A stretch of 64,000 nucleotides of DNA, from positions 1 through 64,000 of the forward strand of contig JAFTWA010000008.1 in the NCBI GenBank assembly GCA_017465565.1, read 5' to 3'. Below the pieces are notes generated by a model that saw only the letters and a program-made list of their open reading frames with translations, was not told where the DNA came from and searched no databases. The position numbers and the translations under genes were made by a program. Every line of letters begins with the position of its first letter. The stretch's first letter is position 1. This DNA comes from Tyzzerella sp. (GTDB taxonomy: Bacteria; Bacillota; Clostridia; Lachnospirales; Lachnospiraceae). Of this stretch, positions 16,590 through 63,601 are shown piece after piece.

Positions 16590-16610
16590 CTTAACGGAAA
16601 TATCCGTTAT

Positions 16611-16695: not shown

Positions 16696-16700
16696 TGAAG

Positions 16701-16743: not shown

Positions 16744-16788
16744 GTGCAGGAGAGACTCCTAAAAATTCCTTTTTTAACCAGTGGTTTA

Positions 16789-16817
16789 TTCCATAAGATG
16801 AACAATTGTAGTATAAT
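16789..16817 (+). promoter_or_regulatory. candidate promoter of the dgt-dnaG-rpoD operon
   Basis: TATAAT at 16812-16817 with a weak -35 TTCCAT at 16789-16794 (17-bp spacer). It lies about 60 bp upstream of the dgt start. Confidence 0.45.
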
Positions 16818-16875
16818 ATGAAGATGACATATAAAAGCCTGCATTAATTATCTGTGATTGTATAGGAGGGATACT

Positions 16876-24427: not shown

Positions 24428-24479
24428 AAGTGTAGTAACACATATATTGGAGCTAAATAGATTTCTTGGAGGAATATGG

Positions 24480-25427
24480 ATGGTTGGATTTGATATAGGT
24501 GGCACAAAATGTGGTGTATGCATTGGTGAAGAAATAGGTGGAAAACTACAGATTTTAGATAAAAGAAGTATTCCTACAGACCATACAATATCACCTTATG
24601 AAATGATAGAACGTATGTGTACCTTATTGGAAGAAATGACAGATAAGATTGACTGTATTGGTATCAGCTGTGGTGGGCCACTGGATTCAAAACAGGGCAT
24701 AATTCAGTCTCCGCCGAACCTGCCTGGCTGGGATAATATATCGGTTGTGAAATATTTGGAGAATAAATATAGTTGCAAGGCATATCTGCAAAATGATGCA
24801 AATGCATGTGCAGTGGCAGAATGGCTGTTTGGAGCAGGAAAAGGATGTCAGAATATGGTTTTCTTAACTTTTGGAACTGGGCTTGGAGCTGGACTGATTT
24901 TAAATGGGCAACTTTATAGCGGCATCTCTGATATGGCAGGCGAATGTGGACATATAAGACTTGCTTCTTTTGGACCGGTAGGCTATGGGAAAGCAGGTTC
25001 CTTTGAAGGATTCTGTTCGGGAAGTGGAATTGCGCAGCTTGGACAGATGATGGCAAAGGAAAAATTGCAGATGGGAGAAGAAGTATCTTATTGTGATGAT
25101 ATGAGTAAGATTGGAGATGTTACTGCAAAATTGATTGCAGAATATGCCAACCAAGGATATGATGATGCCCGCGCTGTATATCGTGTTTGCGGAGAAATGT
25201 TGGGACGTGGTCTTGCAATTTTAATCGATATTTTAAATCCAGAAAAAATTGTTTTAGGTAGTATTTTTCAAAGATGTGAACATCTCTTGAGGGATGAAAT
25301 GGAGCGGACGATAAATAGAGAGAGTCTGGCAACTGCCAATGATGTTTGTCAGGTTGTATCAGCACTATTAGAAGAAAATATTGGAGATTATGCTGCTCTT
25401 GCAGTAGCGGCAATGGGAGGTAAATAA
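24480..25427 (+). CDS. ROK-family sugar kinase
   Basis: Start set at ATG 24480 (MVGFDIGGTK), 7 bp after GGAGG; the TTG at 24447 lies upstream of that site. The 315-residue protein has the N-terminal ATP phosphate motif GFDIGGTKCGVCIG, the substrate segment CGGPLDSKQG, catalytic QNDANACAVAEW (Asp), FGTGLGAGLI, and GECGHIRL. The zinc-binding cysteine cluster CxCGxxGC usual after GH is absent (FGPVGYGKAGSFEGFCSG). No helix-turn-helix domain, so a kinase and not a repressor. Likely phosphorylates a hexose or an amino sugar. The SIS gene follows after one base. Promoter carries the same operator as the giant operon, placing it in that regulon. Confidence 0.85.
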   Translation: MVGFDIGGTKCGVCIGEEIGGKLQILDKRSIPTDHTISPYEMIERMCTLLEEMTDKIDCIGISCGGPLDSKQGIIQSPPNLPGWDNISVVKYLENKYSCKAYLQNDANACAVAEWLFGAGKGCQNMVFLTFGTGLGAGLILNGQLYSGISDMAGECGHIRLASFGPVGYGKAGSFEGFCSGSGIAQLGQMMAKEKLQMGEEVSYCDDMSKIGDVTAKLIAEYANQGYDDARAVYRVCGEMLGRGLAILIDILNPEKIVLGSIFQRCEHLLRDEMERTINRESLATANDVCQVVSALLEENIGDYAALAVAAMGGK

Positions 25428-25428
25428 C

Positions 25429-26016: not shown

Positions 26017-26055
26017 AAAAACTTGGAGATACTTTGAGAGTATTTCCAAGTTTTT
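26017..26055. terminator. bidirectional terminator between SIS gene and regulator
   Basis: 17-bp stem (26017-26033 / 26039-26055) with one mismatch that is a G-U pair in plus-strand RNA, 5-nt loop, A-run and T-run flanks; it serves the convergent genes on either side. Confidence 0.9.
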
Positions 26056-26056
26056 A

Positions 26057-27109: not shown

Positions 27110-29014
27110 ATGGAATATAGTCGGAATGCACAGAAAAGAGGAACTATGAAGTTTTTACTAGGATGTAATTATTGGGATTCAGCACACGGAACAGACATGT
27201 GGAAATACTATGACAGAGAGGTAATAAAAGAAGATATTAAGGCTCTGGCGGATATTGGTGTGAAATGCATGAGAGTATTTCCAAATTGGCGCGAATTTCA
27301 ACCGGTGAAAAGGTTGTACCAATGGCGTATGAAACCCTGTGATTGTGTGGCGGTAGATGAACAGCCGTTGGAAGATGACACAGGGGTTGATAAAAACCAA
27401 ATTGAAAATTTTCGTCATTTCGCAAGCGTTTGTGAGGAATATGGAATTGATCTGATTGTGGCTGTGATGACGGGATGGATGAGTGGACGAGTGTTTGCAC
27501 CGCCGATTGTAGATGGACGTAATTTAATTAACGACCCAGAAGCGCTTATGTGGACAGATCGCTTTATCAGAGGTTTTGTTTCACAAGTGAAGGATATTCC
27601 AAATATTATCATGTGGGATTTGGGAAACGAATGTAACTGTCTGGGACCAACGGAATCTAGAGCAGAGGCGTATGTATGGACTGCTTTTGTAAGAAATGCA
27701 ATCAAAGCAGCAGACCCGACAAGAGAGATTTCTTCAGGTATGCATGGTTTGGATGGAGATGAAGCGGAAGGCGTTTGGACCATTCGCGACCAAGGTGAGA
27801 TTACGGATTATGTAACAACGCATCCTTACGTGTCGCCATCGGTGAATAATGATTATGATGCACCTAATAAAATGCGCTCTACCATATTTCCAACAGTGCA
27901 GAGTATGTATTATCAGGACTTGGGAAGAAAGCCAGTTATCATGCAAGAGCAAAACGCATTTTCAGAGACAACGGCAAATCGTGAAGCGGCAGCCGATTTT
28001 ATGCGGGTTAATTTTTATTCCTGTCTGGCTCACAATATTAAAGGGTACCTATGGTGGTGTGCCCACGAGCATATCCATTTAGATGCTTCTCCATATGCAT
28101 GGTCTATGATGGAACGGTCTCTGGGGCTTGTTGATTTAGAAAGAAAACCGAAACCAATTGGAAAAGAAATGAAAAACATTTCAGCAATCATAGACGAGTT
28201 GCCATTTGATGAACTTCCACAGCATGAGATAGACACTGTATGTGTATTGACAAAAAATGACCGTTGGGCAAATGGTTCGGTGTCTTTCGTACTTGCAAAA
28301 CAGGCTGGTTTGGACATGAAATTCTGTAACGGAGATGTAAGTGGACTATATCCGCCAGATGCATCCGTGTATGTGGTACCGGGAGTATTCAAGTGGGCAA
28401 TTATGTATAAGCACACATGGGAGTTCTTGAAGAGGAAGGTGTATGAGGATGGCGCATCTATGCTGGTTACATACGATGGTGGCAGTTTGATAGAATTGGG
28501 AGAAGTATTTGGATTGCGACCAAATGGCAATATTCGCTCACAGAAAAATCACGTTGGAGAGTTTGAGTTTGGAAAACTGGAATACTATGTGAATCAAGAA
28601 TTGCTTTTAGAAAGTGTAGGGGCGAAGGTGCTTGCTACGAACGAAACAGGAAATATTGTTTTCTCTGAGCATCAGTATGGAAAGGGAAAAGTATTTTTCC
28701 TCAATATGCCACTGGAAGTGAATTTATCTTGCAAAGCGGGTGTATTCAACCAGACAGACTGGTATAAGATTTACCAAAAAGTTGGTGAGGATACAATTGC
28801 GAAAAAGCTTGTTGTATCTACAAATCCACAGATAGGAATTACAGTACATAAAGAGACAGATGAGAGATATATTATTTGTGCAATCAATTATTCTGATGTG
28901 GCACAGGAAACTTGCTTGAAAGTGCAGGAAGGTTGGGTACTTTCTGAAATTCATGGAAGTCTGTTGCAGATTGACAAATGTACAGGAGCATTTTATTACG
29001 CAACCAGAAAATAA
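27110..29014 (+). CDS. intracellular GH5-like glycoside hydrolase
   Basis: 634-residue cytoplasmic protein (no signal peptide) with a clan GH-A TIM barrel similar to GH5/GH42-type enzymes. It starts KFLLGCNYWDSAHGTDMW, has DIGVKCMRVFPNWREFQPV, the acid/base motif WDLGNECN (E174) at the end of a strand, HPYVSP, and a probable nucleophile in PVIMQEQNAF (E280). The C-terminal third (about 370-634) looks like a GATase/trimerisation-type domain and a small beta domain as in GH42-like proteins. An in-frame ATG at 27146 (MKFLLGC) is an alternative start; its AGAGGA is very close, whereas 27110 has only a weak site. First gene of the operon. Substrate unknown; beta-mannosidic, beta-galactosidic or beta-glucosidic bonds are typical. 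Confidence 0.75.
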   Translation: MEYSRNAQKRGTMKFLLGCNYWDSAHGTDMWKYYDREVIKEDIKALADIGVKCMRVFPNWREFQPVKRLYQWRMKPCDCVAVDEQPLEDDTGVDKNQIENFRHFASVCEEYGIDLIVAVMTGWMSGRVFAPPIVDGRNLINDPEALMWTDRFIRGFVSQVKDIPNIIMWDLGNECNCLGPTESRAEAYVWTAFVRNAIKAADPTREISSGMHGLDGDEAEGVWTIRDQGEITDYVTTHPYVSPSVNNDYDAPNKMRSTIFPTVQSMYYQDLGRKPVIMQEQNAFSETTANREAAADFMRVNFYSCLAHNIKGYLWWCAHEHIHLDASPYAWSMMERSLGLVDLERKPKPIGKEMKNISAIIDELPFDELPQHEIDTVCVLTKNDRWANGSVSFVLAKQAGLDMKFCNGDVSGLYPPDASVYVVPGVFKWAIMYKHTWEFLKRKVYEDGASMLVTYDGGSLIELGEVFGLRPNGNIRSQKNHVGEFEFGKLEYYVNQELLLESVGAKVLATNETGNIVFSEHQYGKGKVFFLNMPLEVNLSCKAGVFNQTDWYKIYQKVGEDTIAKKLVVSTNPQIGITVHKETDERYIICAINYSDVAQETCLKVQEGWVLSEIHGSLLQIDKCTGAFYYATRK

Positions 29015-29058: not shown

Positions 29059-32000
29059 ATGGAAAAGAAGTTAAACAAAAAAGTACTTTTTCCAGTCTTG
29101 GCGATCATAGTAATTTTGTTATTGCTGCTAGTATGGATGCTGTTTGGAAGAAACACAGATGTGACAGACTATGATATTTCTCTGAATCAAAGGGATGTTG
29201 CTATTGAAAAGGGCGAAGAAGTACAACTTCAGATTGTACCGAACAAAGAAAAATATGAAAACCTGGATGTGGATATCACATGGATTAGTTCTAATCCAGA
29301 GGTGGCTACAGTCGACGAAGATGGAACAGTAACTGGTAAGGACGGAGGAGAAACTAAGATTACGGTAATTGTATTGTATGACGGGAAAGAGTACAGTGCA
29401 TCTTGCATCGTAACCATTAAGGACTCTGACGAACAATATTCTCTCTATAAGGTGCGCTGGTTTACTCAGAGTAAAGACAGGGGTACCTACGATGTAAAGG
29501 AAGAAGTGTTTGAACGATTGGTTGGCAGCGAGGTAGAACTTTCGGAGAAAGACGCAAGTGCAAATCTTCCAAGCCAGTATGTTTTAAATAAAGAGAAGAG
29601 TGTACTGAAGGGAACTGTAAAAGAGAATAAGAGTGCCTGCGTATTGGAAGTGTACTATGACGTGGCAGAGGTTACCTATTCAGTGAACTATTATTTTGAA
29701 TCAGAAGAGTTAGGAATCTATAAGCTTGGTGAGACGAAGAAATACAAAGCATATGCATTTACAGAGGTGGAGGCACCGAGTGCAGATAAGAAAGGTTTTG
29801 TGTTAGATAGTTCTGTAAAAGGAAGCGTGCTAAAGAAAGCAGAGCTTACTATGGGATCAAAGTTGAATGCATATTATTCAAGAATTAGAAGTAAGGTTAC
29901 CATCTCTTATTTAGATGGACGAAAAGATGCAACTTACACAAATGTGTATGGAATTGGACTTTTAGATGCACCAGTAAATGCATTGAAAGAAAGTTCTAGC
30001 CTTCTATTCCCAATTACAACATATTTGAATGGGAAGAAGCAGACGGTAACAGCAGAAACATTAAAATCACTTACCAGCGATGCAAAGGTGGCATTCCAGG
30101 TAGAGGGTGAGGGCTTCACCTATCTGACTGCAGATGGCGGAACACTTCTCAATACGAGTGAAGAAAAAGCAAAGGCTTCTTATGCATACTTGAAGGGAAG
30201 CAGCGATGTGATTTATTTGTCTGCAACTTATACCACAACAGGTTCTAAGGACAATGTATTTGGTGTGAGCATTCGAAATGGAAAAGAAAGTAGAGAAATC
30301 CGTTTCCAGAGTCTTGGAGTTGCGGTTACAAAGAATCACACACAAGAAGGCGGAACATTAAACGCGGAAATGCCAGTCTACTATTATAACTTTGCTGGAA
30401 GAGACGGCACGACTTGTGTCTTTGCACAAAATGCATTTGGAACATTAGGAACAACCACAAATTCAGAAATCCAGAATATGATTTCGAACACGATGGGCGG
30501 AAGCTATGATATTGTCTGGGCAGTATGGGAAGGCACCCTTTACGGAAGTCTTGATGGAGTGACTATAGTTCGACTACCACTGAATCTTCTGAATGCTTCA
30601 TGGACGGCAGATAAGAAATATGAGATTGGTTTTTCAAGTTTTGACGGCGTAGATGCAGGCGATGAACTTAAGATTACAAACATTGATGTATCTTTTGGTG
30701 AAGAGGCAGAGAAAAAGTTAATCACAGACCAAGAAATTACTTATTCTGAGAAATACAGAGTGGATTATGAACCACTGACTGGTGCATACATTCCAGCTTC
30801 AATTAATGGAGCGTCTTACATCTATGGAACAGAAAGCAAAGAGAATAGTGGTATTTCAACCAATTTGAAATGGGTGGATGCACAGAACACAGCGGCAAGA
30901 GTTGGTATTACCGTAAAGGTTGGCGACAAGACAGAACAATTCGGAATTGATGGTACACGCAATGTAATTTATCACGATACAAATTATACATGGGGTGCTG
31001 CTGCAATCACAGATCAAGTTTTGAAATATGCAAATACATTTGATAAGAATGGCAATTGTCAGGTAACAGCAGTTGTAAAGGATGGAAACTTCTATATCCA
31101 ATTTAATGGAAAACAGGCTCTCTGCATTAAGATGCATGCACTGTTCCCAGGATATACAAAGGACAGTCAGGTTTCTGTTGGCGTATATACATACAACGCA
31201 TGTGTTGGACAATCTCATTTCCAAGACATGAAAGTGTTATCAGTAACAGAGGTCGATAAATTAGCGTTGACCGAGTGGAGATATTATTCAGAACTTTTAA
31301 GCATTGATGATTATTCTTTTGCTGACGGTTCTGCTATGAAAACAACCACTGGCAATACATCAACTAAGAATGTAACTCTTTATGGACAGTCAGATGCATG
31401 GCAGATTGAAGGTATCATGAAGCGTACAGATACATCCTATGACAAGAATCTTATTATGGGATTTGCAGTGCAGTCAGGCGATAAAGAAGTTTGGATTGGT
31501 GGAATGACCAATGGATTTGTAAAGGTTGTAAACGGTCAATGGGGTGCTGTAGGAGATACAAGTGCAACCTTGCATGCTGTTGGAGTAGATACATACGCTG
31601 TAAATGATAAGGTGATTGCATTCTTTGGAGCTGCAAATGGCACAAAGAAAAGAACTTTAGATGAAACAGAGTTTAAAGTTGCAATCTATGATGATGTATT
31701 CTATGCATGGTTTGATGGCGAACTTTGCTGGAGAGTTCCACTGGAAGAAGTTCAATTTGGCGGATTCGCAGAAGGCTCTGAATATAAAGTGACACTTCGA
31801 ATTGCGGAAGATGCCGATACAGCAGTGAGAACTGGTGGATTTGATGATTTACAGGTGAAAATGGGATACGAAGTGACGGAACAGGAGAATTTTGCAAAGA
31901 CACTTGCAACTATCGATAAGAACGTAACAAGATGGGACAGCTTTGTGGCAAAACGATTGACTGGTGGATTTGCTGAGAATGTAGATGAACTATATACATA

Positions 32001-34464
32001 TGCCTGGACGGGTAAACCATATGCTTACTTAAAGGAAGCATCAACAGATATTTATCTCTCTGCGACCTTTAATCAAAAGGCTGACCAATCAGAAGGATAT
32101 GGAATTACCATACTTCAAGGAACGGAAAGTCGTCAGATTGAATTTTTGAATGAAGGTGTACAGATTAGAGCAAATCGTACAGACTCGATAACAGGGGCCC
32201 CAGGAATTGCAGACGGAAAAGTAAATACATTTGCGTTCTCGTTTGAGGCAGCACCAGGATATGGTTACAAAGATCATTTCTGGGCGCAAAACATTTCTGG
32301 TACAGATGGCACAACAAAGAATATTGCAATAAGTAAGATGACAAGAACGGCAGATGGCAAAACCTCTTATAAGGTTGTATGGGCGATTACAGATGGAATT
32401 CTGTATGGAAGTCTGGATGGACAACCATTTATGCAGATGCCATTAACAATGCTTTGTGCAGACTGGACCGCAGAGAAAGAATATCGAATTGGATTTAGTT
32501 GCATAGATAATTATGCTGCCAAAATGAAGGTTACAGATATTGTTGATTTGTATGGAGATGAGGCAAAGGCAAAACTGGTAACAGATAAGAAAGTGACAGC
32601 AGCAGAGACAAGCCAATTCTCATACGAAGCATTGACAGGAAGTTATATGCCAAGTTCAAGTGATGGAGCGAAATATCTGTATGGTGCAGCTACAACAGAA
32701 AATCAGGCTGTGAAAACAACGATTCAGTTAGTAGATAAGGCTAACACAGCTTCATGGAATGGTATTACGGTAAAAGCAGGTAATGAGACAGCACAAGTTG
32801 TGGTACAAGGTGCTGGAAGGAATGTAAAACTCCTTCTGAATCAAGCGACTGCAAACGCACATGATGTGACTGCGAAAATCCTAAGCGAAGCGTCAACTTA
32901 TAACGATAAAGGCGTATGTCAAATGACTGCAGTTGTGAAGAATGCTACTCTTTATGTTCTTTGCAATGATGTTCAAGTAGGTGCTATTTCATTGAATAAG
33001 ATTCTTACGGAATACAAGTCAGGAGATTCTGTGCAATTAGGTATCTTTGCATATGATTCTTCAAAGGGAAGTGCAAAATATCAAGATGTTCAGTTTGTAA
33101 CAGGTGTAGATGCAGAAGGTATTGCAGTGAAAGATACACCGGCATGGAGTGATTTAAAATTCTTTACAAGTGAGATTTATCAGGCAAATGTTGACCATGT
33201 GAATGGAAAGATTAACAACGTGGCAAATAGAGGAACCTTGGTTCGTTTCCGTGGTGAGAGTGATAAATGGGAAGTGTCAGGAAAGATGACACGTACAGAT
33301 GAGATAACAGCGAAAAAGCAATTACTGTTGGGATTCAATGTTATGTCAGGAACTAAGACACTTAGAGCGACAACTTATTATCAGGGAATACGTTTCCAAA
33401 AAATTGAAAATGGTTCGGTCAAGGCATCAACGGATGGATACAGACATGGGGCAAATATAATGGCATTTAATCCTGCTATTGGAGATTTCTTTAAAGCATC
33501 TCCATTCGAGCGTACGAAGAATGAAATTTACTTTAAAGTGGTTATTGTAAATGATACTTTGTATGTATGGTTTGGAGATAGTGAAAGTAATTTGATTGAA
33601 TCATGGAAAGTTCCATTAAATGAAGCGATTATGGATTATGATAATTCATCTCAAACATATTCTAGTACAGAAATTTTTGATGGATTTGCTGATGGAAGTA
33701 AATATAATTTTGGATTTTATATTGATGGTGCAGTAGAAGGACAGATTAGTAATCTTACTGTAAAAATGGGAAATGGTGTAGACACTACGGGCATTTCAGC
33801 ATTTCCTAAGTTTTTCACAAGTCAGGAGTATCGCGCAACAGTAAATAAAGTGGCAGGTACTGCATCAAATATTGGTCAGAACTTAGAAACATTAATTCGT
33901 TTTCAAGGAAATAGTAACAGGTGGGAAGTAAGCGGAACTATGGCACGTACAGATGCTATCGCAGATAAGAAAGAACTACTACTTGGTTTTAATATTCAGG
34001 AGAGTGGAAAGGTTCTAAGAGCAATTACATACTATCAAGGATTTCGTTTGGTAGATAATGAAAATGGCAGTTATGTGGATAATAATAATTTCCGACATGG
34101 AGAAAATGAACTTGCATTTAACACAAAGGTTGGTGATTATTTTAAAGCATCACCATTCCAGCGTACAAAAAATACAGTTAGTTTTAAGGCTGTCATTGCA
34201 AATGATGTTTTATATGTATGGTTTGGGGACGATGCCAATAGTTTAATTCCTTCATGGAAAATACCATTAAGTTCATCTATTAAAGATTGGGATAATACAA
34301 ATAAAAAGTATCTTTCAACGGAAGTGTTTGCTGGATTTACAAGTGGTAGTGCCTATAACTTAGGAATTTATATTCCGGGTTCTCAAGAGATAGGTAATAT
34401 CTCGAATCTTACTGTAAAAATGGGAAATGCAGTAGATATTACTTGCTTATCAGATTTCAATTAA
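29059..34464 (+). CDS. giant membrane-anchored modular repeat protein
   Basis: 1801 residues. A short basic N-terminus and one uncleaved-looking helix (about 9-30) anchor it, leaving the rest outside. Order: Big_2-type Ig-like domain (about 38-122; SNPEVATVDEDGTVTGKDGGETKITV), two short MucBP-like segments (about 130-275), then two kinds of larger module. Module A (about 377-735 and 985-1365) shares AYLKxxSxDIYLSAT, YGSLDG, W-T-A-(D/E)-K-x-Y-x-IGFS and LTGxYxPxSxxGAxYxYG. Module B (about 737-955, 1370-1584 and 1585-1801) shares W-(E/Q)-(V/I)-x-G-x-M-x-RTD, LLGFN, YVWFGD and GFAxGSxYN; the last two copies are near duplicates. The modules look like concanavalin-type beta-sandwiches. No catalytic residues recognised; probably a glycan-capturing surface protein. 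AAAGGAGGA precedes the start. Confidence 0.7.
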   Translation: MEKKLNKKVLFPVLAIIVILLLLLVWMLFGRNTDVTDYDISLNQRDVAIEKGEEVQLQIVPNKEKYENLDVDITWISSNPEVATVDEDGTVTGKDGGETKITVIVLYDGKEYSASCIVTIKDSDEQYSLYKVRWFTQSKDRGTYDVKEEVFERLVGSEVELSEKDASANLPSQYVLNKEKSVLKGTVKENKSACVLEVYYDVAEVTYSVNYYFESEELGIYKLGETKKYKAYAFTEVEAPSADKKGFVLDSSVKGSVLKKAELTMGSKLNAYYSRIRSKVTISYLDGRKDATYTNVYGIGLLDAPVNALKESSSLLFPITTYLNGKKQTVTAETLKSLTSDAKVAFQVEGEGFTYLTADGGTLLNTSEEKAKASYAYLKGSSDVIYLSATYTTTGSKDNVFGVSIRNGKESREIRFQSLGVAVTKNHTQEGGTLNAEMPVYYYNFAGRDGTTCVFAQNAFGTLGTTTNSEIQNMISNTMGGSYDIVWAVWEGTLYGSLDGVTIVRLPLNLLNASWTADKKYEIGFSSFDGVDAGDELKITNIDVSFGEEAEKKLITDQEITYSEKYRVDYEPLTGAYIPASINGASYIYGTESKENSGISTNLKWVDAQNTAARVGITVKVGDKTEQFGIDGTRNVIYHDTNYTWGAAAITDQVLKYANTFDKNGNCQVTAVVKDGNFYIQFNGKQALCIKMHALFPGYTKDSQVSVGVYTYNACVGQSHFQDMKVLSVTEVDKLALTEWRYYSELLSIDDYSFADGSAMKTTTGNTSTKNVTLYGQSDAWQIEGIMKRTDTSYDKNLIMGFAVQSGDKEVWIGGMTNGFVKVVNGQWGAVGDTSATLHAVGVDTYAVNDKVIAFFGAANGTKKRTLDETEFKVAIYDDVFYAWFDGELCWRVPLEEVQFGGFAEGSEYKVTLRIAEDADTAVRTGGFDDLQVKMGYEVTEQENFAKTLATIDKNVTRWDSFVAKRLTGGFAENVDELYTYAWTGKPYAYLKEASTDIYLSATFNQKADQSEGYGITILQGTESRQIEFLNEGVQIRANRTDSITGAPGIADGKVNTFAFSFEAAPGYGYKDHFWAQNISGTDGTTKNIAISKMTRTADGKTSYKVVWAITDGILYGSLDGQPFMQMPLTMLCADWTAEKEYRIGFSCIDNYAAKMKVTDIVDLYGDEAKAKLVTDKKVTAAETSQFSYEALTGSYMPSSSDGAKYLYGAATTENQAVKTTIQLVDKANTASWNGITVKAGNETAQVVVQGAGRNVKLLLNQATANAHDVTAKILSEASTYNDKGVCQMTAVVKNATLYVLCNDVQVGAISLNKILTEYKSGDSVQLGIFAYDSSKGSAKYQDVQFVTGVDAEGIAVKDTPAWSDLKFFTSEIYQANVDHVNGKINNVANRGTLVRFRGESDKWEVSGKMTRTDEITAKKQLLLGFNVMSGTKTLRATTYYQGIRFQKIENGSVKASTDGYRHGANIMAFNPAIGDFFKASPFERTKNEIYFKVVIVNDTLYVWFGDSESNLIESWKVPLNEAIMDYDNSSQTYSSTEIFDGFADGSKYNFGFYIDGAVEGQISNLTVKMGNGVDTTGISAFPKFFTSQEYRATVNKVAGTASNIGQNLETLIRFQGNSNRWEVSGTMARTDAIADKKELLLGFNIQESGKVLRAITYYQGFRLVDNENGSYVDNNNFRHGENELAFNTKVGDYFKASPFQRTKNTVSFKAVIANDVLYVWFGDDANSLIPSWKIPLSSSIKDWDNTNKKYLSTEVFAGFTSGSAYNLGIYIPGSQEIGNISNLTVKMGNAVDITCLSDFN

Positions 34465-43972: not shown

Positions 43973-45472
43973 ATGAAAATTGTCAATGTTATGAATTTTG
44001 TAAGACAATGTGACCCGCGCTCTGAGATTATTGATAAAGCATTGTTTCCAACTACCAAGGCACAAATGGAATTGGTAAAAGAAATGGATGTTGAGCATAC
44101 CTTCTTGCTGCAATATGACACCTTATGTGATCCAAAATACATTGACCTTTTTAAAACGGAATCAACTGAGAAGACAGAATTAGGACTTTGGTTTGAGATT
44201 GTGCAGGAGTTGACGGACGCAGTAGGTATTCCATATAGAAGTGAAAAAAACTGGAAGTGGGATTGGCATATTATTCCGGGGTTTTCTATGGGATATAGTG
44301 TTGCGCAGCGAGAATTATTAGTAGATGAGGCAATGCGAAAATTTAAGGAAGTATATGGAGTTTATCCAAAGACCGTTGCAAGCTGGACAATGGACACACA
44401 CACTATTAATTATCTGACGGACAACTATGATATCAGTACACTTTTAAACTGCAGAGATCAAGTAAGTACAGACGCATATACGATGATTGGAGGATATTTC
44501 AATCAGGCATATTATCCTTCCAGAAAAAACATGTTTACACCAGCGCAGTCAGAGGAGTTGCGGGTGAATGTTCCAATGTTTCGTCTTCTTGGTCCAGATC
44601 CAATACATAATTATGATGATAAAAAATATATTTCAGAAGATTGTGAACATAGAATGAATTGTTACACTATGGAAGCAGTATGGATTGGTCCACACCCTAG
44701 CGTAGTGGATTGGTTTTTAAAAACATATTTTGTAAATGAGGATATGGGATTTTCTTATGCTCAGATTGGTCAGGAAAATAGTTTTGGAGCCCAGGATATT
44801 GTTAGCGCATTGCGTATGCAGCTTGAAAAAGTAAAAGAGATGCCAGATATCAAAGTTATGAAAATGTGTGATACTGGTGAGTGGTTTAAGGAGCAATATA
44901 AGAGGGAAACACCTGTAACAGCAGTAACTGCGCTTGATAATTGGGATAAGGAAGATATTCAATCGGTTTATTATGACAGTCAGTATTATACTGTGAATGT
45001 ATTCCGCCACAATAAAGATATTTTTATCCGAGCCCTTTATGCATTTGATGAAAATGCGGAGGACACCTATTTGAGAGACGTATGTACTACCTTTGATGCG
45101 GTTTACGAAAATCAACCCGTTGTGGATACCGTTATTTGGGGAAAGGATGAAGAGAAGTGTGGAATGTATTTTGACAATGAGGCAGAATCTTTTTACGTGA
45201 ACAGAATCTCAGATAAACAATTGAAAATATCATGGGGAAATAAAGCAGTTGTATTTGATGAACAGAGAATTACAACAAAAAATATATGTATCAGATTTTA
45301 TCCGGGCCAGGCAAAAGCAAAAATTTTTGTAAAGAAAGATGCAATAGAGTATTTATATCGAGGACGAGAATACGCTATGCAGGTAACAGGCGGAACTGTA
45401 AGCGAACAAGATGGATGTATTACAGTAGAACCTTCCTGCGATACGTTGGAACTTGAAATTAAGATAAAGTAG
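43973..45472 (+). CDS. unrecognised protein, NodB/GH57-like fold suspected
   Basis: 499 residues, no signal peptide. I do not recognise the family. The first 300 residues have the order of a (beta/alpha)7 deacetylase/GH57-GH38-like barrel: an early TFLLQYDTL strand, GLWFEIVQELTDA, WDWHIIPGFSMGYS, then YPKTVASWTMDTHTINYLTDNYDISTLLNCRDQ, which is how NodB/GH57-like barrels carry their Asp/His residues. The last 120 residues form a beta domain like those capping glycosidases. Located between surface genes and clear intracellular glycosidases, directly after a hairpin, 10 bp before the next gene. Likely a cytoplasmic glycosidase or deacetylase; not certain. Confidence 0.5.
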   Translation: MKIVNVMNFVRQCDPRSEIIDKALFPTTKAQMELVKEMDVEHTFLLQYDTLCDPKYIDLFKTESTEKTELGLWFEIVQELTDAVGIPYRSEKNWKWDWHIIPGFSMGYSVAQRELLVDEAMRKFKEVYGVYPKTVASWTMDTHTINYLTDNYDISTLLNCRDQVSTDAYTMIGGYFNQAYYPSRKNMFTPAQSEELRVNVPMFRLLGPDPIHNYDDKKYISEDCEHRMNCYTMEAVWIGPHPSVVDWFLKTYFVNEDMGFSYAQIGQENSFGAQDIVSALRMQLEKVKEMPDIKVMKMCDTGEWFKEQYKRETPVTAVTALDNWDKEDIQSVYYDSQYYTVNVFRHNKDIFIRALYAFDENAEDTYLRDVCTTFDAVYENQPVVDTVIWGKDEEKCGMYFDNEAESFYVNRISDKQLKISWGNKAVVFDEQRITTKNICIRFYPGQAKAKIFVKKDAIEYLYRGREYAMQVTGGTVSEQDGCITVEPSCDTLELEIKIK

Positions 45473-52034: not shown

Positions 52035-52967
52035 ATGTTAGTGTATGGACTTAAAAATTTTAGAATTAATGACTCATGGTATTGCAAAGAAGGGGATACC
52101 TATCATGCATTTTTTCTTCAGACACATAGGTCAGGTGAACCGCAAAGCTGTGGACATATGATTTCCAAGGATTTAGTCCACTGGAGTTATAAGGGTGTCG
52201 TGCTGGAAGGTGAGAAAGGTACATGGAATGATGTTGGAATTGCAACAGGAAGCGTGGCAAAACATAACGGACGTTGGTATATGCTTTATACGGGTGTGGC
52301 AAGTGGTGAAAACGCAGGCGGTATAGGTGTCGCTGTCAGTGATGATTTAATTACTTGGGAAAAAATAGGCAATGGACCGATAATCAAACTTGGTTGTCCA
52401 TATCCGTTTGAATGGAATGGCGAGACTGTGTATTGCCATCCACTGGCAGACCCATATATTTATCCAGAACCTGTTGAAGGCGAATATTATATCTTTGTAA
52501 ACAGCCAGGCTGCTCATTATCCGTTTAACAGACGCGCAGCCATGGCAATATTTAAAACTTGTGATTTTAAAACCTTTACACCTTATAAGCTTGCAACACT
52601 TGACGACTGTGACCGTATAGAAACCTGTCAGGTGTGGAAACACAATGACAAATATTATATGTATGGAGGTCGTGTATACGCAAAATTATCTGCGGATGGG
52701 AACGAGAAAATCTTAGGATGGGAGAATGGAAACTGGATTTTTGTATCTGATAACTTTACAGGCCCATACAAACCAATCCAAAAACTAGAATTAATTAGAG
52801 ATGCTGATTTACCAGAAGGAGGTCTTTATATAGCGAAAGTTTTGGAAGATCCTGACGGACAAGAGGTTATGCTTATTAATCATATTCCGTATGGAGCAGT
52901 TGGACCGTATCCTGTACACTATCTGCCGAATCATACAATTGCTTTAGAATATAAAAATAGAGCTTAA
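52035..52967 (+). CDS. GH43/GH32-like beta-propeller glycosidase
   Basis: 310-residue cytoplasmic protein with a five-bladed propeller pattern: YCKEGDTYHAFFLQTH, MISKDLVHWSYKGVVL, WNDVGIATGSVAKHNGRWYMLYTGV, VAVSDDLITWEKIG, HPLADPYIYPEPVEGEYYIFVNSQA and DRIETCQVWKHNDKYYMYGGRVY (Glu candidate acid). Asp in FRINDSW and LADPYI are candidate base and pKa-modulating residues. Shorter than secreted GH43 or GH32 enzymes; no signal. Specificity unclear; beta-fructofuranosides, arabinofuranosides or a GH130-like phosphorolysis are possible. Confidence 0.65.
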   Translation: MLVYGLKNFRINDSWYCKEGDTYHAFFLQTHRSGEPQSCGHMISKDLVHWSYKGVVLEGEKGTWNDVGIATGSVAKHNGRWYMLYTGVASGENAGGIGVAVSDDLITWEKIGNGPIIKLGCPYPFEWNGETVYCHPLADPYIYPEPVEGEYYIFVNSQAAHYPFNRRAAMAIFKTCDFKTFTPYKLATLDDCDRIETCQVWKHNDKYYMYGGRVYAKLSADGNEKILGWENGNWIFVSDNFTGPYKPIQKLELIRDADLPEGGLYIAKVLEDPDGQEVMLINHIPYGAVGPYPVHYLPNHTIALEYKNRA

Positions 52968-52991: not shown

Positions 52992-53720
52992 ATGCAATTA
53001 AAATTATTTCATAAGGGATTTAACTATTCACAAGACGGTACGGGAAATCGTTTGGTATATCACTTGCAGGGATGTAATTTATCTTGCCCATGGTGTGCAA
53101 ATCCGGAAGGAATGGACGCAGAAGGACCAGATACTTTTACAATGACTATAGAGGAAATGTGTGAAGAAATTGTGCGCTGCAAACCTATGTTTTTTGACGG
53201 GGGTGGCGTGACATTTACCGGAGGAGAAGCAACCTGTCAATTTATTGCTTTGAAAGAGATTTTGACACGATTAAAGAGGATAGGTATATCGACTGCCTTG
53301 GAGACAAATGGAACATCTTCTAAATTACCGGAATTGTTTCCTGTGCTAGATGAGTTGATTATGGATTATAAACATTATGATTCTAAAATACATAAAAAGA
53401 TTATGGGATTAGGGAATGATGTTATAAAAGAAAATTTAGGAAAGGCATTTGTGGAACATCCCAAATTACTAGTGAGAATTCCTTTGATTGGAAAGGTAAA
53501 TGCTTCGGAGTGTGATATAGAACAATTTATAGCATTTTTCAATCAATACCATTTTTTTAATGCACGCTTCGAACTGTTATGTTACCACGAGTACGGAAAA
53601 GCAAAATGGACGAAATGCGGAAAAGAATATATTGTGCAAGATGCATTTGTGCCAGAAAAAACACGGGTAAATTATGAAAACAAAATGCGTATGTGTGGAT
53701 TCAACATAGTTAGGACGTAA
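52992..53720 (+). CDS. glycyl-radical-enzyme activating protein (radical SAM)
   Basis: 242-residue radical SAM enzyme of the PflA type. The [4Fe-4S] motif is C28-x3-C32-x2-C35 (CNLSCPWC), followed by ANPEG, then GGGVTFTGGEATCQF and ALETNGTSS, as in activases of glycyl radical enzymes. No insertion with two further [4Fe-4S] clusters is present, so it is of the short, PFL-activase-like form; activases of dehydratase-type enzymes usually carry that insert. It uses S-adenosylmethionine to create the glycyl radical on its partner, encoded 12 bp downstream. Confidence 0.92.
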   Translation: MQLKLFHKGFNYSQDGTGNRLVYHLQGCNLSCPWCANPEGMDAEGPDTFTMTIEEMCEEIVRCKPMFFDGGGVTFTGGEATCQFIALKEILTRLKRIGISTALETNGTSSKLPELFPVLDELIMDYKHYDSKIHKKIMGLGNDVIKENLGKAFVEHPKLLVRIPLIGKVNASECDIEQFIAFFNQYHFFNARFELLCYHEYGKAKWTKCGKEYIVQDAFVPEKTRVNYENKMRMCGFNIVRT

Positions 53721-53735
53721 AAACAGGAGGATGTG

Positions 53736-56105
53736 ATGATGTATCAAGTATATGAAGCAGAGCAGATTACTGCTATGGCAAAGGATTTATTTAGGGAAGA
53801 AAGATCAAAGAAAAGACTTGATGGTTGGTTTTTAACAAGAGAAATCGTCTGCAATCATGCGCACGAGTGGAATGAATGTTCCAGAGAGATGAGAGCAGCA
53901 AAAGAATTGCGGGCAATTTTGCGAGAATTACCACTTTCTATTAGTGAATATGCAATTTTTGCGGGAAGTCAGTCAGATGCGTTTGCACGTAGCTATGCAC
54001 TAATAAATCCGGCATTTCAGGTGGAAACTTTCTCAGGTTACTGTGACCCAACCGCAGTTTTTAATGATATTGAACCTAATGAAGAATTCACAGAAGAACG
54101 TATTGCACGCGTACGGGATTTCACAAAGGAGTCAGATTATGTGCGTACGTTAACAGAAGTTTATGATAAATATGAAAACTATACTACAGAGGTAGCTTTT
54201 TTTATTGAACAGGTAACTGGACATATTATTCCAGATTTTCGTCCTGTTCTTGCACATGGTTTGGATAGAATTATTACAGTGCTGGAAGAAAAGATTGCAT
54301 CAGAATCGGATAATATAAAAAAAGATAATTTTGAAGCCATGAAGTTGACACTATTGAGTACGATTGATTTGGCAGAACGCTATGCGAACATTGCAAATGA
54401 GCAAAGGAAGACAGCAACACCGAAAAGAGCAGCACAATTGAAATTAATGGAGCAAACGCTTCGAAAAGTACCGAGACAAGGTTGTGATACTCTATATGAA
54501 GCAATTCAATCCTTTATTTTGTTATGGGAAGTTATGTGCTTGGAGCAGGCTCCAAATCCATTTGCTTTTTCTGTAGGAAACGCAGACCGCATTTTTGAAC
54601 CATATAGAGCAAAGGAAAATTTGTCGAGAGAAAATACCGCTGCGTTGTTGAAGCATTTGTTGGTTTTCTATAATGTAGGCGATCGTAGTTGGGCAATTTC
54701 GCAAAATTTGCTTATTAGTGGGAAAGATTTGGACGGAAATGATATGACAAATGAGACATCCTATGCACTCATGGAGGCATACTTGGATATGAATTTACCA
54801 CAACCCATTTTATCTGTGAAATTACATAAGAATACACCAGACGAAATATATGAGGCAATGGGACGTTTCTTCTTTTCTCCAGGAATGTTAACGCCGTCGT
54901 TATTTAATGATGATTCTGTTTTCCAAAATCTAAAAATACATAGAGTAGTAGATGAAGAACTGCCAGATTATGCGGTAGCGGGCTGTCAGGAACCTTTGAT
55001 AATGGGAAAAGACAATGGTAATACAACGAACAGTTGGCTGAATATGGCAAAGATATTGGAACTAACATTAAATAGTGGTAAATCCATGATTACTGGAAAG
55101 ACAATTGAAGCAACGGAAGAATTTCCGGCTTTGGAGTTACTCCAAAATATTCGGGAACGTTTTTATGAAAATATAGAACAATATATTAATTTAATGTGTG
55201 AAGCAGCAAACGGAGCATCAAAAGCAATCAGTTATCTTCCGGTTCCGTTTTTGAGCATATTCATGGGTGGAACTGAGACGGGATATGATATGCGTGATAC
55301 AGAGCATCAGGGAACACCATATAACGGAAGCGGTTGTTTGATTCATGGTTTAAGTGTTGTGGCAGATTCCTTTATTGCGATTGATAAACTGTTAGTTGAA
55401 CGTCCAGAAGAAGCGGAGAATCTATTGAAGGCTTTGAAGGTGAATTTTGAAGGATATGAGGAACTGCATGCATTTTTGAAATCTGCACCAAAATTCGGGA
55501 ATAACGTTCCAGAAGTGGACAAAGAAGCATGTATTGTTGTAACGAAGGTTTCAGATATGGTAACTGCACATAAAAATTATTTGGGTAATCCATTCCGTGC
55601 TGACTGGGCAAGTCCGACAACTCATTTGACATATGGATATTGGGTTGCCGCAACACCAGATGGACGTAAGGCGCGTGAACAATTGAACTATGGAGTAGAC
55701 CCATTGTTCGGAGATGCAGACCAAGGTATGGGATTTCGTATGTTATCTAATATGAGATTACCATTTGATAAGATGGATGGAGGATATGCATCACACTTTG
55801 GTATTAATCCAAAAATGTTTCATTCGCCGACATTAGAAGGAAAAGGACTTGATTTTGCAAAACGTGTAATAAAACCATTGTTCTTTAATGAGAAAAATAC
55901 AGCAAAAGTAGCACCGTTTTATTTGTATGTCAATGTAACTACTCCGGAGACACTTCGAAAAGTGTTGGCAGAACCGAAAAAGTATGCACCAACAGGTGTT
56001 TATATTATGAGAATTCATGGCACATTTGTGAATTTCCTTGACCTGTCTCCAGATATTCAGCAAGACATTATCAAACGCCTGGATTTAGAATCAACAAAAA
56101 TGTAG
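53736..56105 (+). CDS. glycyl radical enzyme of unassigned function
   Basis: About 789 residues (the open frame also offers GTG at 53733; AGGAGG ends at 53730, so ATG 53736 or 53739 is likelier). The active-site cysteine motif is AGCQEPLIMG (Cys near 417, Glu two residues later), the Cys-x-Glu pattern of dehydratase/lyase-type members rather than the Cys-Cys of pyruvate formate-lyase. ATPDGRKAREQLNYGVDPLFG is the usual family motif near the C-terminal domain. The radical loop reads RIHGTFVNFLDLS (Gly near 762), where most family members have RVxGY/F/W. Oxygen-sensitive, needs the adjacent activase. Set among glycosidases and sugar kinases, so a sugar-derived substrate is suspected; no known subclass recognised. 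Confidence 0.85.
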   Translation: MMYQVYEAEQITAMAKDLFREERSKKRLDGWFLTREIVCNHAHEWNECSREMRAAKELRAILRELPLSISEYAIFAGSQSDAFARSYALINPAFQVETFSGYCDPTAVFNDIEPNEEFTEERIARVRDFTKESDYVRTLTEVYDKYENYTTEVAFFIEQVTGHIIPDFRPVLAHGLDRIITVLEEKIASESDNIKKDNFEAMKLTLLSTIDLAERYANIANEQRKTATPKRAAQLKLMEQTLRKVPRQGCDTLYEAIQSFILLWEVMCLEQAPNPFAFSVGNADRIFEPYRAKENLSRENTAALLKHLLVFYNVGDRSWAISQNLLISGKDLDGNDMTNETSYALMEAYLDMNLPQPILSVKLHKNTPDEIYEAMGRFFFSPGMLTPSLFNDDSVFQNLKIHRVVDEELPDYAVAGCQEPLIMGKDNGNTTNSWLNMAKILELTLNSGKSMITGKTIEATEEFPALELLQNIRERFYENIEQYINLMCEAANGASKAISYLPVPFLSIFMGGTETGYDMRDTEHQGTPYNGSGCLIHGLSVVADSFIAIDKLLVERPEEAENLLKALKVNFEGYEELHAFLKSAPKFGNNVPEVDKEACIVVTKVSDMVTAHKNYLGNPFRADWASPTTHLTYGYWVAATPDGRKAREQLNYGVDPLFGDADQGMGFRMLSNMRLPFDKMDGGYASHFGINPKMFHSPTLEGKGLDFAKRVIKPLFFNEKNTAKVAPFYLYVNVTTPETLRKVLAEPKKYAPTGVYIMRIHGTFVNFLDLSPDIQQDIIKRLDLESTKM

Positions 56106-56117: not shown

Positions 56118-57482
56118 ATGCAGATTATAGGTTTAGACATAGGGACTACATCCGTGTGTGGGATCTGTTGTGATACACATACTGGGGAAATCATAGAGAC
56201 AATAACGCTTTCGAATAAAGCAGGCATTACGGGTACTTATGCGTGGGAAAAATTACAGGATGCCCGTGTGCTTGTGGATACGGTAAAAGAGATAACGTGT
56301 ATGTTACTGGAAAAATCGCAGAATGTGTGTAGCATCGGCATCACGGGACAGATGCATGGTATTGTGTATTTGGATGAAAAGGGAGAACCTGTGAGCCCGT
56401 TATACACATGGCAGGATGGGAGAGGTGACCAGCCGTATAAAGAAGGAAAGACATATGCAGAATGGCTGTATGAAAAGACTGGCTATTCGTTAGCGACAGG
56501 ATATGGAGCGGTTACGCATTTTTACAATGTAATAAATGGATTGGTGCCGGATACCGCTAACACTTTCTGTACCATTCATGACTTGGCAGCGATGGTGCTT
56601 TCGGGTGCTGCTCGTCCGTTGTTACATCCATCGGACGCTGCAAGCTTTGGACTTTATGATTTGCGCATGCATCAATTTGATGCAGAGGCAATACGAAAAG
56701 CGAGTATGAATCCAGATTTCTTTCCGAAAGTCAAAGACGGTTATCAGATGATAGGAAAAACAAAAGAAGGAATTCCTGTTTCCGTGGCGATTGGAGATAA
56801 TCAGGCAAGTGTACTTGGTTCCGTCAGTGATATGGAAAACAGTATTTTGATAAATGTGGGAACCGGCAGTCAGATTTCTTGCGTCATAAAGGGAGTACCG
56901 GAATACTGTGATATGGATTGCCGTCCTTTGGTTGAAGGGTTTTATTTACTAGTAGGTTCTTCGCTGTGTGGTGGGCGTGCATATGCGATATTAGAAAGGT
57001 TTTTGCGGGAGGTTGCTATACTAGTGACAGATTCAAAAGTAGATAGTGCCTATCCTGCTATGAATCGAGTAATGGAAGCATACGTAACACAAAAGCAGCC
57101 TCTGGTTGTGGATACCAAGTTTAGTGGAACGAGACTGGAGCCGAACAGAAGAGGAACTATCAGCAATGTTGATATTGAAAATTTGACGATGCCTAACTTA
57201 TGTGATGGTGTCATGAACGGTATGGTGGAAGAGTTATTTGAACTGTACCGACAGATGAAACCATTTCTGGAAAGTACTCCAATAAAAATGGTCGGTTCTG
57301 GAAATGGAATTCGATTAAACAAACAACTCGCAAAACGATTTTCTGACATATTTAATATGCCATTGGCAATTCCAAAGCACAGGGAAGAAGCTGCTTTCGG
57401 TGCGGCAATATTTGGATTTATAGCATTGAAGGGAAATTCAAACATAAAAGAAATACAGAAATTGATACAGTATATTCAATAA
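56118..57482 (+). CDS. FGGY-family carbohydrate kinase (sedoheptulokinase-like)
   Basis: 454-residue FGGY kinase: IIGLDIGTTSVCGICCD phosphate motif, SIGITGQMHGIVYLDEKGEPVSPLYTWQDGRG, AIGDNQASVLGSV, NVGTGSQISCV, and C-terminal MVGSGNGIRLNKQLAKRFSDIF. The MHGIVYLD and WQDGRG forms are those of sedoheptulokinase-like members, but FGGY kinases change specificity easily. It follows the glycyl radical enzyme by 12 bp and may phosphorylate a ketose produced in the pathway. Confidence 0.82.
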   Translation: MQIIGLDIGTTSVCGICCDTHTGEIIETITLSNKAGITGTYAWEKLQDARVLVDTVKEITCMLLEKSQNVCSIGITGQMHGIVYLDEKGEPVSPLYTWQDGRGDQPYKEGKTYAEWLYEKTGYSLATGYGAVTHFYNVINGLVPDTANTFCTIHDLAAMVLSGAARPLLHPSDAASFGLYDLRMHQFDAEAIRKASMNPDFFPKVKDGYQMIGKTKEGIPVSVAIGDNQASVLGSVSDMENSILINVGTGSQISCVIKGVPEYCDMDCRPLVEGFYLLVGSSLCGGRAYAILERFLREVAILVTDSKVDSAYPAMNRVMEAYVTQKQPLVVDTKFSGTRLEPNRRGTISNVDIENLTMPNLCDGVMNGMVEELFELYRQMKPFLESTPIKMVGSGNGIRLNKQLAKRFSDIFNMPLAIPKHREEAAFGAAIFGFIALKGNSNIKEIQKLIQYIQ

Positions 57483-61777: not shown

Positions 61778-62704
61778 ATGAAATGGAAACAACCTAGTGA
61801 TAGTAAAAATATTTTGAAATTGAATCGTCCAGAGGGGAAAATACGATTGGTTATCGATTCGGATGCTTACAATGAGGTTGATGACCAGTATGCAATTTCA
61901 TATGCATTAAAAAGAACAGACAGAATTCAGATAGATGCAATCTACGCAGCACCATTTTTCAATGACATCGCTGAATCTGTGCAAGATGGCATGGAAAAGA
62001 GTTATGCCGAAATAAAAAAACTTTTACATATGTTAAAGAGGGATGATTTGACAGAATGCGTTTATAAAGGTTCTAACAATTATTTGCAGGACGAGGATAC
62101 ACCTCAGGAATCAGAGGCTGCAAGAGACCTTGTTAGAAGAGCGATGGCTATGCCGGAGGGTGAAGTGTTATATGTTGCAGCGATTGGAGCGATTACGAAT
62201 ATCGCATCCGCACTTTTGATGGAGCCGGCGATTGTAGATAAAATCGTATTGATTTGGCTTGGCGGACATGCACATTATTGGAAGCATACAAGAGAATTTA
62301 ATTTGATACAGGATGTTGCAGCGGCCAGAGTTGTTTTTGATAGTGGTGTACCAATGGTACAGATTCCATGTGAAGGTGTTGCTAGTCGCTTGGCAACAAC
62401 GGAGCCAGAACTCTGTGCTCACATGAAGGATAAGAGTGAAATTGGAGCTTATTTATATCGGATTACATGTGATATTGCTGCAAGACAGGAAGGGAAATAT
62501 TGGAGTCGAGTGATTTGGGATGTTTCTACCATTATGTGGCTTGTTGGTCCGGAAAAAGGCATGTCTGAGCATCTGATTCACAGTCCGATTGTAACTTACG
62601 ACGGAACCTATAGCGTAGATGAGAGAAGACACTTAATTAAAGTAATTGATTGGTTTGATAGAGACCAGATTTTTGAGGAAATGTTTACAGTATTAGAGGA
62701 TTAA
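61778..62704 (+). CDS. nucleoside hydrolase-like protein
   Basis: 308-residue inosine-uridine nucleoside hydrolase fold. The calcium-binding N-terminal motif reads DSDAYNEVDDQYAISYAL (Asp27, Asp29, Asp35, Asp36), the variant with two extra residues compared with the classical DTDPGxDD. VAAIGAITNIASALL and LIWLGGHAHYWKHTREFNLIQDVAAARVVF match the ribose-binding motif (ExNxxxD; here EFNLIQD) of the family. Such enzymes split N-glycosidic bonds of ribosides; those in glycan loci may cleave other C1 bonds. The ribokinase gene follows after 15 bp, so liberated ribose could be phosphorylated directly. Confidence 0.8.
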   Translation: MKWKQPSDSKNILKLNRPEGKIRLVIDSDAYNEVDDQYAISYALKRTDRIQIDAIYAAPFFNDIAESVQDGMEKSYAEIKKLLHMLKRDDLTECVYKGSNNYLQDEDTPQESEAARDLVRRAMAMPEGEVLYVAAIGAITNIASALLMEPAIVDKIVLIWLGGHAHYWKHTREFNLIQDVAAARVVFDSGVPMVQIPCEGVASRLATTEPELCAHMKDKSEIGAYLYRITCDIAARQEGKYWSRVIWDVSTIMWLVGPEKGMSEHLIHSPIVTYDGTYSVDERRHLIKVIDWFDRDQIFEEMFTVLED

Positions 62705-62719
62705 GAGGAATATAGAATT

Positions 62720-63601
62720 ATGAAATTGGCAGTGGTTGGAAGTATAAATATGGATATGACAGTCTGCGTAGAACGTATGCCTAAAAAGGGAGAAACCCTT
62801 TTAGGGGAGAGTTTAAGATATGCTCCAGGCGGAAAGGGTGCCAATCAGGCTGTGGCTATGGCAAAATTAGGAGCAGAAGTATGGATGTTTGGTTGTGTCG
62901 GTACTGATAGTAATGGGAAAGCCGTTCTTGGAAATCTGGCAGAACAAGGGGTACATACAGACTATATACAAATTTTAGAGAAAGAACCGACAGGGCTTGC
63001 ACTTATCACAGTTGGTGAGAATGACAATATGATTATTGTTGTTTCTGGTGCAAATGCAAAGGTAGATGTCGATTATGCGCAAAGTATTTGTTCTAAATTA
63101 GATGATTTTGATATGGTAATATTGCAGCATGAGATTCCATTAGAGACTGTGGAGTATGTTGTTAATTATTGTGCAGAAAAAGGGATTAAAGTTACGCTTA
63201 ATCCGGCACCAGCTGCTAAGGTATCGGAAGAACTGATTGAAAAGCTTACTTACATTACTCCAAACGAGCTTGAAACAGGATTAATTTTTGGTAAGGAGAA
63301 AAATATTAACACCTTACTTCAAAAATATCCTGAGAAGTTAATCATTACAAGAGGTGCGCAGGGTGCGGTTGTAGGTTTGAAGAATAAAGAGATTTTTCAG
63401 ATTCCGGCAAACAGAGTGGATGTGGTAGATACAACTGGAGCAGGCGATACTTTTAACGGAGCCTTTTGTGTTCGCATTGCAAAGGGAGACACGATGAAAG
63501 ACGCCCTTCGTTTTGCAAATATTGCGGCGGGACTTTCTACAGAAAAGTTTGGTGCACAAGCAGGAATGCCGACAGAAGAGGAGGTTCTTTCAAGAATATA
63601 A
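62720..63601 (+). CDS. rbsK: ribokinase (PfkB family)
   Basis: 293-residue PfkB-family kinase with ribokinase signatures: SINMDMTVCVERMPKKGETLLGES, PGGKGANQAVAMAKLGAEVWMFGCVG, ITPNELE, and the ATP/anion-hole motif VDTTGAGDTFNGAF with the catalytic Asp. It converts ribose to ribose-5-phosphate. The length fits ribokinase (about 300). Its stop overlaps the next start by one base, so the two are coupled. It forms a pair with the nucleoside hydrolase-like gene. Confidence 0.88.
   Translation: MKLAVVGSINMDMTVCVERMPKKGETLLGESLRYAPGGKGANQAVAMAKLGAEVWMFGCVGTDSNGKAVLGNLAEQGVHTDYIQILEKEPTGLALITVGENDNMIIVVSGANAKVDVDYAQSICSKLDDFDMVILQHEIPLETVEYVVNYCAEKGIKVTLNPAPAAKVSEELIEKLTYITPNELETGLIFGKEKNINTLLQKYPEKLIITRGAQGAVVGLKNKEIFQIPANRVDVVDTTGAGDTFNGAFCVRIAKGDTMKDALRFANIAAGLSTEKFGAQAGMPTEEEVLSRI

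Follow-up and report, generated by a model that had tools for sequence, protein, structure and literature searches.

A clade of glycyl radical enzymes with a rebuilt radical loop and a sugar kinase partner, and its possible part in sugar catabolism of Clostridia

The first 64,000 nucleotides of contig JAFTWA010000008.1 of Tyzzerella sp. (GenBank assembly GCA_017465565.1), here called the window, were found to encode a genuine glycyl radical enzyme (GRE) with an activase and a sugar kinase as partners, and the fold family, residues, clade and gene partners of this protein are shown here; it is assigned to a new GRE subfamily. It is tentatively proposed that Clostridia use this clade in a so far undescribed pathway of radical sugar catabolism, in which the GRE with its rebuilt radical loop would break a C-O bond in a sugar or anhydro-sugar that bears no phosphate, and a dedicated FGGY kinase, often together with an enzyme of new function derived from mannose-6-phosphate isomerase (PMI), would complete the pathway.

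The genes are all on the + strand in the order GH43/GH32-like protein, activase, GRE and FGGY kinase, with gaps of 24, 12 and 12 bp in the list of open reading frames (ORFs). This confirmed the first-pass annotation of the DNA, which had placed an activase and a full-length GRE with a GCQEP site between a propeller glycosidase and an FGGY kinase.

52035..52967, + strand: propeller glycosidase-like protein, 310 aa, with Pfam GH43 and GH32N matches; not conserved beside homologues
52992..53720, + strand: GRE activase of the radical-SAM type, 242 aa, with Cx3Cx2C at residues 28-35 and no ferredoxin-like insert
53733..56105, + strand: GRE, 790 aa, assigned to a new subfamily by Pfam, NCBIfam, alignment and tree
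54984..54992, + strand: codons of thiyl Cys418, Gln419 and Glu420 (GCQEP), invariant in 44/44 full-length members
56019..56021, + strand: codon of the radical-site Gly763 in RIHGTF, assigned by alignment only
56118..57482, + strand: FGGY carbohydrate kinase, 454 aa, subtype labelled SHPK-like (Pfam FGGY_N/FGGY_C)

The activase, the GRE and the kinase match the Pfam families Radical_SAM, PFL-like and FGGY_N/FGGY_C, respectively; the genome of the window has five PFL-like matches in total.

Sequence, phylogeny and distribution of the subfamily

The window GRE has the PFL/GRE barrel fold. Across the 44 full-length members 212 of the 790 residues are invariant, and 89 of these differ from all five reference GREs used for comparison. 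Cys418, Glu420 and Gly763 are invariant in the 44 members and common to all five references, such that the glutamate two residues after the thiyl cysteine, which marks GRE eliminases, is present in every member as E420. At the position aligned with His164 the Escherichia coli enzymes YbiW and PflD also carry a histidine.

Alignment with the references showed that the radical loop reads RIHGTF, is preceded by three extra residues and has no aromatic residue after the glycine. This departure from the usual motif had been noticed at the outset and was borne out: 50 of 58 subfamily ORFs read RIHGTF, and the remaining 8 are truncated at a contig end, split or frame-broken. Split or broken GRE copies are found in loci L071, L070 and L024, and relatives have intact copies. 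The predicted local distance difference test (pLDDT) score of the structure model is under 50 at residues 759-765, around Gly763. The GRE fingerprint, stated as RVXG[FWY] in a 2024 paper (PMC11528403), differs from the clade sequence at two positions, with the glycine retained. The same paper describes noncanonical aminoacyl radical enzymes (AAREs), in which the glycine is replaced by Ala, Ser or Thr; with Gly763 kept in 44/44 members, the clade is not of this type.

None of 17 clade members was matched by the Pfam Gly_radical model PF01228, even at E 0.1, while the same model matches YbiW, PflD, HypD and the second GRE of locus L006 at E 2e-21 or better. A changed radical loop makes a GRE difficult to detect with domain models or fingerprints, and yet this clade, whose tested members are missed by both, occurs in 21 of the 397 genomes searched from the family of the window (E 1e-100) and in 14 of the 391 from its class (E 1e-90), the window's own genome being included in each count.

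It is highly improbable that the window GRE belongs to a known subclass (glycerol or propanediol dehydratase, HypD or PFL2) and has merely diverged in sequence while keeping the ordinary substrate. Its best sequence matches are indeed glycerol dehydratase and archaeal PFL2, its best structural match is propanediol dehydratase (23% identity), and it shares the conserved Cys, Glu and His with these B12-independent glycerol/1,2-propanediol dehydratases. However, its identity to the characterised GREs in the alignment is 17-26%, and all 9 matching full-length NCBIfam GRE models score far below their cut-offs. For trans-4-hydroxyproline dehydratase HypD the model NF043068 gives 169 bits against a cut-off of 1100, and identity to the HypD of a relative (L102) is 23%. 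The residues His281, Ser282 and Asp447, which we take to form the glycerol dehydratase pocket, are not kept, being F277, A278 and T432 in the window GRE (H281-S282 and W445-H446-D447 align with F-A and N-T-T), and the gene neighbours differ from those of the dehydratases. The 89 invariant residues not found in the references also argue against a known subclass, as does the tree, in which the 44 members form a separate clade at 100/100, apart from a YbiW+PflD group (100/97); a long stem, to which a program warning applies, leaves the exact neighbour of the clade unsure. The separate GRE subclass suggested by the first-pass annotation was therefore upheld, and no high similarity to a characterised subclass appeared in the searches made.

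A scan of GTDB contigs returned 23 loci, 22 of them from the subfamily and one, at 26% identity, with another GRE. Locus L016, in which ORF calling missed the GRE, and L028 (26%, another GRE) were left out before counting; L019 and L027 are pieces of one metagenome-assembled genome, and L100 and L101 are from one genome. By identity and tree path the nearest relatives of the window GRE, at 71-74% identity, are from Oscillospiraceae and other rumen or gut Clostridia, and full-length copies within the window's own family are 60-63% identical to it. Horizontal transfer is only a suggestion, because no starred group of the tree contains the window. No relatives were found among the viral contigs searched, nor in plasmids at E 1e-60.

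Within the reach of the searches made, the subfamily, its radical loop, its kinase partner and its PMI-like partner are new. No match joining "glycyl radical" with "FGGY" or "glycyl radical enzyme" with "anhydroglucitol" was found in a literature search outside which most subscription journals lie, and among the paper titles listed none pointed to the subfamily, so absence from print is weakly supported. PMC11574389 reports that many abundant gut GREs are of unknown function, and an earlier GRE network may already contain the clade as a cluster without a name.

Genes adjoining the GRE

Gene neighbourhoods were tabulated for 56 loci, and the 46 with flanks of 0.8 kb or more upstream and 1.5 kb or more downstream were counted, 10 being dropped. 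Many neighbours were named by eye; of each kind that serves as evidence, one or two members were run against Pfam or NCBIfam, and the names of ABC transporter genes and of AraC and GntR regulators are by-eye names without such a scan. The ORF caller was greedy and introduced spurious ORFs into the gene tables, one of which (L056) masked a fructose-6-phosphate aldolase (FSA) gene that was recovered by profile searches.

All 46 loci encode an activase on the strand of the GRE and no more than 6 kb from it, and an FGGY kinase is within 6 kb in 41, with 32 kinases of the window's type and 9 of the xylulokinase type. The five loci with no kinase in this range are L055, L064, L065, L068 and L070. 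The constant unit is activase-GRE-kinase. The tie to sugar metabolism drawn earlier thus holds, and in the searches made the homologues are not mostly without sugar genes. A kinase is labelled SHPK or XylB according to its greater resemblance to one or the other of these two kinases, and the SHPK type, that of the window, is presumably akin to sedoheptulokinase. One XylB-type member was scanned and lies above the xylulokinase cut-off; the window's kinase type passes no cut-off.

The window activase lacks the ferredoxin-like insert, as the first reading of the sequence had stated. Among 48 activases beside the GRE a Cys-rich insert is kept in 19 (e.g. L025, L052, L060 and L089-L091) and is missing in the others; its gain or loss within one GRE clade provides a natural set for studying the role of the auxiliary cluster. 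The activase of L069 has a low-complexity stretch at the insert position.

The proposal that the substrate is released by the glycan-degradation genes around the module was not borne out; it does not follow, because glycosidases vary among the loci and often none was seen. The window glycosidases, which include GH106-like and GH3 proteins, are not conserved beside homologues and were rejected as the substrate source. Elsewhere GH32 occurs in L022 and L024, DUF2961 in L096, GH38 in L093 with a same-cluster gene in L095, and GH2 in L017 with a cluster mate in L018, and many homologue loci have no glycosidase by eye. One ORF of L093 (6334-9732) contains a GH38 alpha-mannosidase and an aldo/keto reductase domain, in that order. 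Ribose-type-looking ABC transporters adjoin the module in seven loci (L052, L053, L057, L060, L063, L068 and L070). The binding protein of the L060 transporter was tried as a guide to the substrate and discarded, having only general matches to ribose-binding and other sugar-binding proteins.

Candidate chemistry and the aldolase association

Among the closest known systems are YbiW and PflD of E. coli, which cleave 1,5-anhydroglucitol-6-phosphate and 1,5-anhydromannitol-6-phosphate (AG6P/AM6P), as stated in section 5.1 of PMC12441222, and form 1-deoxyfructose-6-phosphate according to the same paper. The PDB titles of 8id7 and 8id0 agree with these anhydrohexitol-phosphate substrates. The genes fsaA, fsaB and gldA are located near ybiW/pflD, and the route is named anhydroglycolysis. 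YbiW and PflD resemble the window GRE in the GRE fold, the Cys-x-Glu site, the histidine at the His164 position and the activase gene alongside. An FSA-type aldolase accompanies the clade unevenly, being near the GRE in 4 genomes and enriched in family genomes that carry the GRE. YbiW and PflD differ in being 22.5% and 25.5% identical to the window GRE, in having PTS (phosphotransferase system) genes at pflD where the clade has an adjoining FGGY kinase, and in the PMI-like partner of part of the clade carriers; the RIHGTF loop of the clade also evades PF01228, which matches both E. coli proteins. The best reading is that the window GRE works like YbiW and PflD but stands outside their clade. 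The first-pass annotation had listed no sugar among the substrates of known GREs. Its separate subclass stood, whereas GREs for sugar-derived substrates are already known, so that the clade is new as a subfamily and not as a new kind.

In GRE chemistry the glycyl radical is passed to a cysteine, and the resulting thiyl radical abstracts a hydrogen at a carbinol carbon, upon which the neighbouring oxygen substituent is lost. For the window protein we infer chemistry class and product type along these lines, and the kinase and aldolase partners point to a sugar-type substrate and a ketose product. The activase with SAM would place the radical on Gly763, and from there it would move to Cys418, which would abstract a hydrogen at a carbinol carbon of the substrate, a small sugar, polyol or anhydro-sugar. 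The C-O bond at the adjacent carbon would then be broken with acid/base help from Glu420 and His164, so that this adjacent carbon loses its oxygen and a deoxy-keto sugar results, which the neighbouring FGGY kinase would phosphorylate. The product would be led to glycolysis by an aldolase, which is true FSA in one clade, or, in other lineages, by the PMI-like partner. The chances are judged about even that the enzyme is a C-O-cleaving GRE eliminase with a sugar-type substrate and a kinase acting after it. The best single guess for the substrate, a doubtful one, is an unphosphorylated 1,5-anhydrohexitol (1,5-anhydromannitol or -glucitol), which would yield 1-deoxyfructose, then 1-deoxyfructose-6-phosphate, and finally glyceraldehyde-3-phosphate and hydroxyacetone. 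If true, the sugar reading adds a separate route for the radical chemistry of anaerobes on sugars, with a few candidate substrates and some partner genes open to direct assay.

The aldolase link was assessed in the 397 family genomes, of which 241 contain FSA/TalC by TIGR00875. At least two copies are present in 15/21 GRE-positive and 38/376 GRE-negative genomes, the latter counted by eye (Fisher p 3e-10). Inspection of residues identified 10/10 sampled lower-scoring sequences as true FSA and the higher-scoring ones as transaldolase-like; the residues were inspected in these 10 of the lower class and the others were classed by score. With a true-FSA profile (E 1e-66) the counts are 14/21 against 20/376 (p 5e-12), by genus 12/19 against 18/315 (p 9e-10), and after removal of the family genomes that supplied the profile 6/13 against 20/376 (p 6e-5). 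In G104 and G375 the lower-class TIGR00875 matches are weaker and lie below the threshold of the FSA profile, and these genomes were counted as negative. In four genomes (G323, G384, G231 and G085) the FSA gene and the GRE are 1.1-1.6 kb apart. An apparent FSA of L094 has residues of the transaldolase type and was not counted. As YbiW and PflD make 1-deoxyfructose-6-phosphate with fsaA, fsaB and gldA nearby, a 1-deoxyketose phosphate would be the most economical reading of the intermediate in the clade with XylB-type kinases and FSA. Its extension to the window would rest on conserved active-site segments of the GRE, not on partners in the window's own genome.

Several results weigh against this scheme. 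The window's own genome yielded neither a true FSA nor a PMI-like gene in the profile searches, which lowers our confidence, and the steps after the kinase in that genome are guessed. Outside the family FSA is present in only 2/13 GRE-positive genomes (G475 and G663), and 11 of the 14 GRE-positive family genomes with FSA belong to one 14-row clade of the GRE tree, that with the XylB-type kinases.

The order of the two first steps might also be reversed, with the FGGY kinase phosphorylating an imported polyol or anhydro-sugar and the GRE cleaving the phosphate ester, much as the PTS carries out the first step in E. coli; this is considered unlikely. YbiW and PflD act on 6-phosphates according to PMC12441222, gene order does not fix the order of steps, and the ribose-type-looking transporters of the seven loci fit import of an unphosphorylated sugar for a later kinase step. 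On the other hand, the XylB-type member that passes the xylulokinase cut-off would suit a keto product more than a cyclic polyol; little can be drawn from the kinase type of the window, which passes none.

PMI-like partner, sugar isomerases and other genes of the window

A divergent PMI-like gene is present in 18/46 loci, all 18 with the window's kinase type. Sixteen members were aligned and are 48-68% identical to that of L007, and their profile matches 1qwr (E 4e-30), which we take to be ManA of Bacillus subtilis. As in class I mannose-6-phosphate isomerase, the presumed metal-ligand columns Q108, H110, E128 and H191 are invariant in 16/16 members. In contrast, the stretch TYRVYDYDR of true PMI, to which we likewise assume a role, is replaced by FTIQPExWC, and the two members scanned reach 95.9 and 72.4 bits with TIGR00218, below its cut-off of 116.2. 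Judged from the changed TYRVYDYDR stretch, mannose-6-phosphate isomerase activity appears doubtful.

The PMI-like gene scores over 490 bits in 12 of 34 GRE-positive genomes, and in the class it was found in 6/245 genomes (E 1e-80), all 6 GRE-positive, with a profile that was built from GRE loci and favours such copies, although the same protein in a GRE-negative genome would still be found; GRE-negative genomes of the family were covered as far as they were in the class draw. In G474, G214 and G204 the gene is on a contig other than that of the GRE, and in L069 (11089-13647) FGGY kinase and PMI-like protein are fused in one 852-aa ORF. The PMI-like protein looks dedicated to the GRE pathway. 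On contig 141 of G204 the PMI-like match is within a 787-aa open frame, which may be a second fusion case. By eye, an FSA-type gene is present in 3 of the 12 PMI-like genomes against 13 of the 22 others, which is suggestive of FSA and PMI-like protein as mutual alternatives, though not clean.

These isomerase-related neighbours bring in another explanation, decidedly unlikely, in which the GRE product keeps its 1- and 2-oxygens. The GRE would break a C-O bond of the ether or glycosidic type and liberate, for example, mannose, and PMI-like, GmhA-like and lyxose-isomerase neighbours, thereby given a common role, would isomerise the product to a fructose-type sugar before or after phosphorylation. 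The frequency of the PMI-like gene, its occurrence in GRE-positive genomes only among the 245 searched from the class and its fusion with the kinase in L069 all fit. So do a D-lyxose isomerase with a PfkB-family kinase in L098, the GH38 and GH2 genes mentioned above, and a GmhA-like SIS protein with a ROK kinase, which directly follow the GRE in L067, are near it in L017 and L018, and occur about 27 kb upstream in the window. The altered TYRVYDYDR stretch of the PMI-like family speaks against it, however, as do the lack of the gene in the window's genome and its absence within 6 kb in all 9 loci with XylB-type kinases, one such genome, G214, having a copy elsewhere. The deoxy-keto sugar product is preferred here. 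The pair in the window is as follows.

24447..25427, + strand: ROK-family sugar kinase, about 27 kb upstream of the GRE module; a homologue (53% identity) is two genes after the GRE in L067
25429..26016, + strand: GmhA-like SIS-domain sugar-phosphate isomerase adjoining the ROK kinase; a homologue (52% identity) is directly after the GRE in L067

An AraC-type gene on the opposite strand parts this pair from the large + strand block just downstream (pair and AraC-type gene together: 24447-26866), and the link of the pair to the window GRE is circumstantial. The GRE module itself belongs to that block, a + strand gene run (27110-63601) in which no gap exceeds 69 bp. Within the run, two proteins that are glycosidase-like by eye (27110-29014, 634 aa, and 43973-45472, 499 aa) have no Pfam match at E 1e-5. 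A protein of 1801 aa (29059-34464), repetitive by eye, has a single Big_2 domain and otherwise no Pfam match at the same threshold, and a nucleoside-hydrolase-like protein followed by a ribokinase is encoded at 61778-63601, within the glycan gene run. In L006 an 874-aa ORF (14885-17509) has an AraC-type helix-turn-helix before an ordinary GRE (PFL-like and Gly_radical), followed by an activase, and is either a regulator-enzyme fusion or an overlong ORF.

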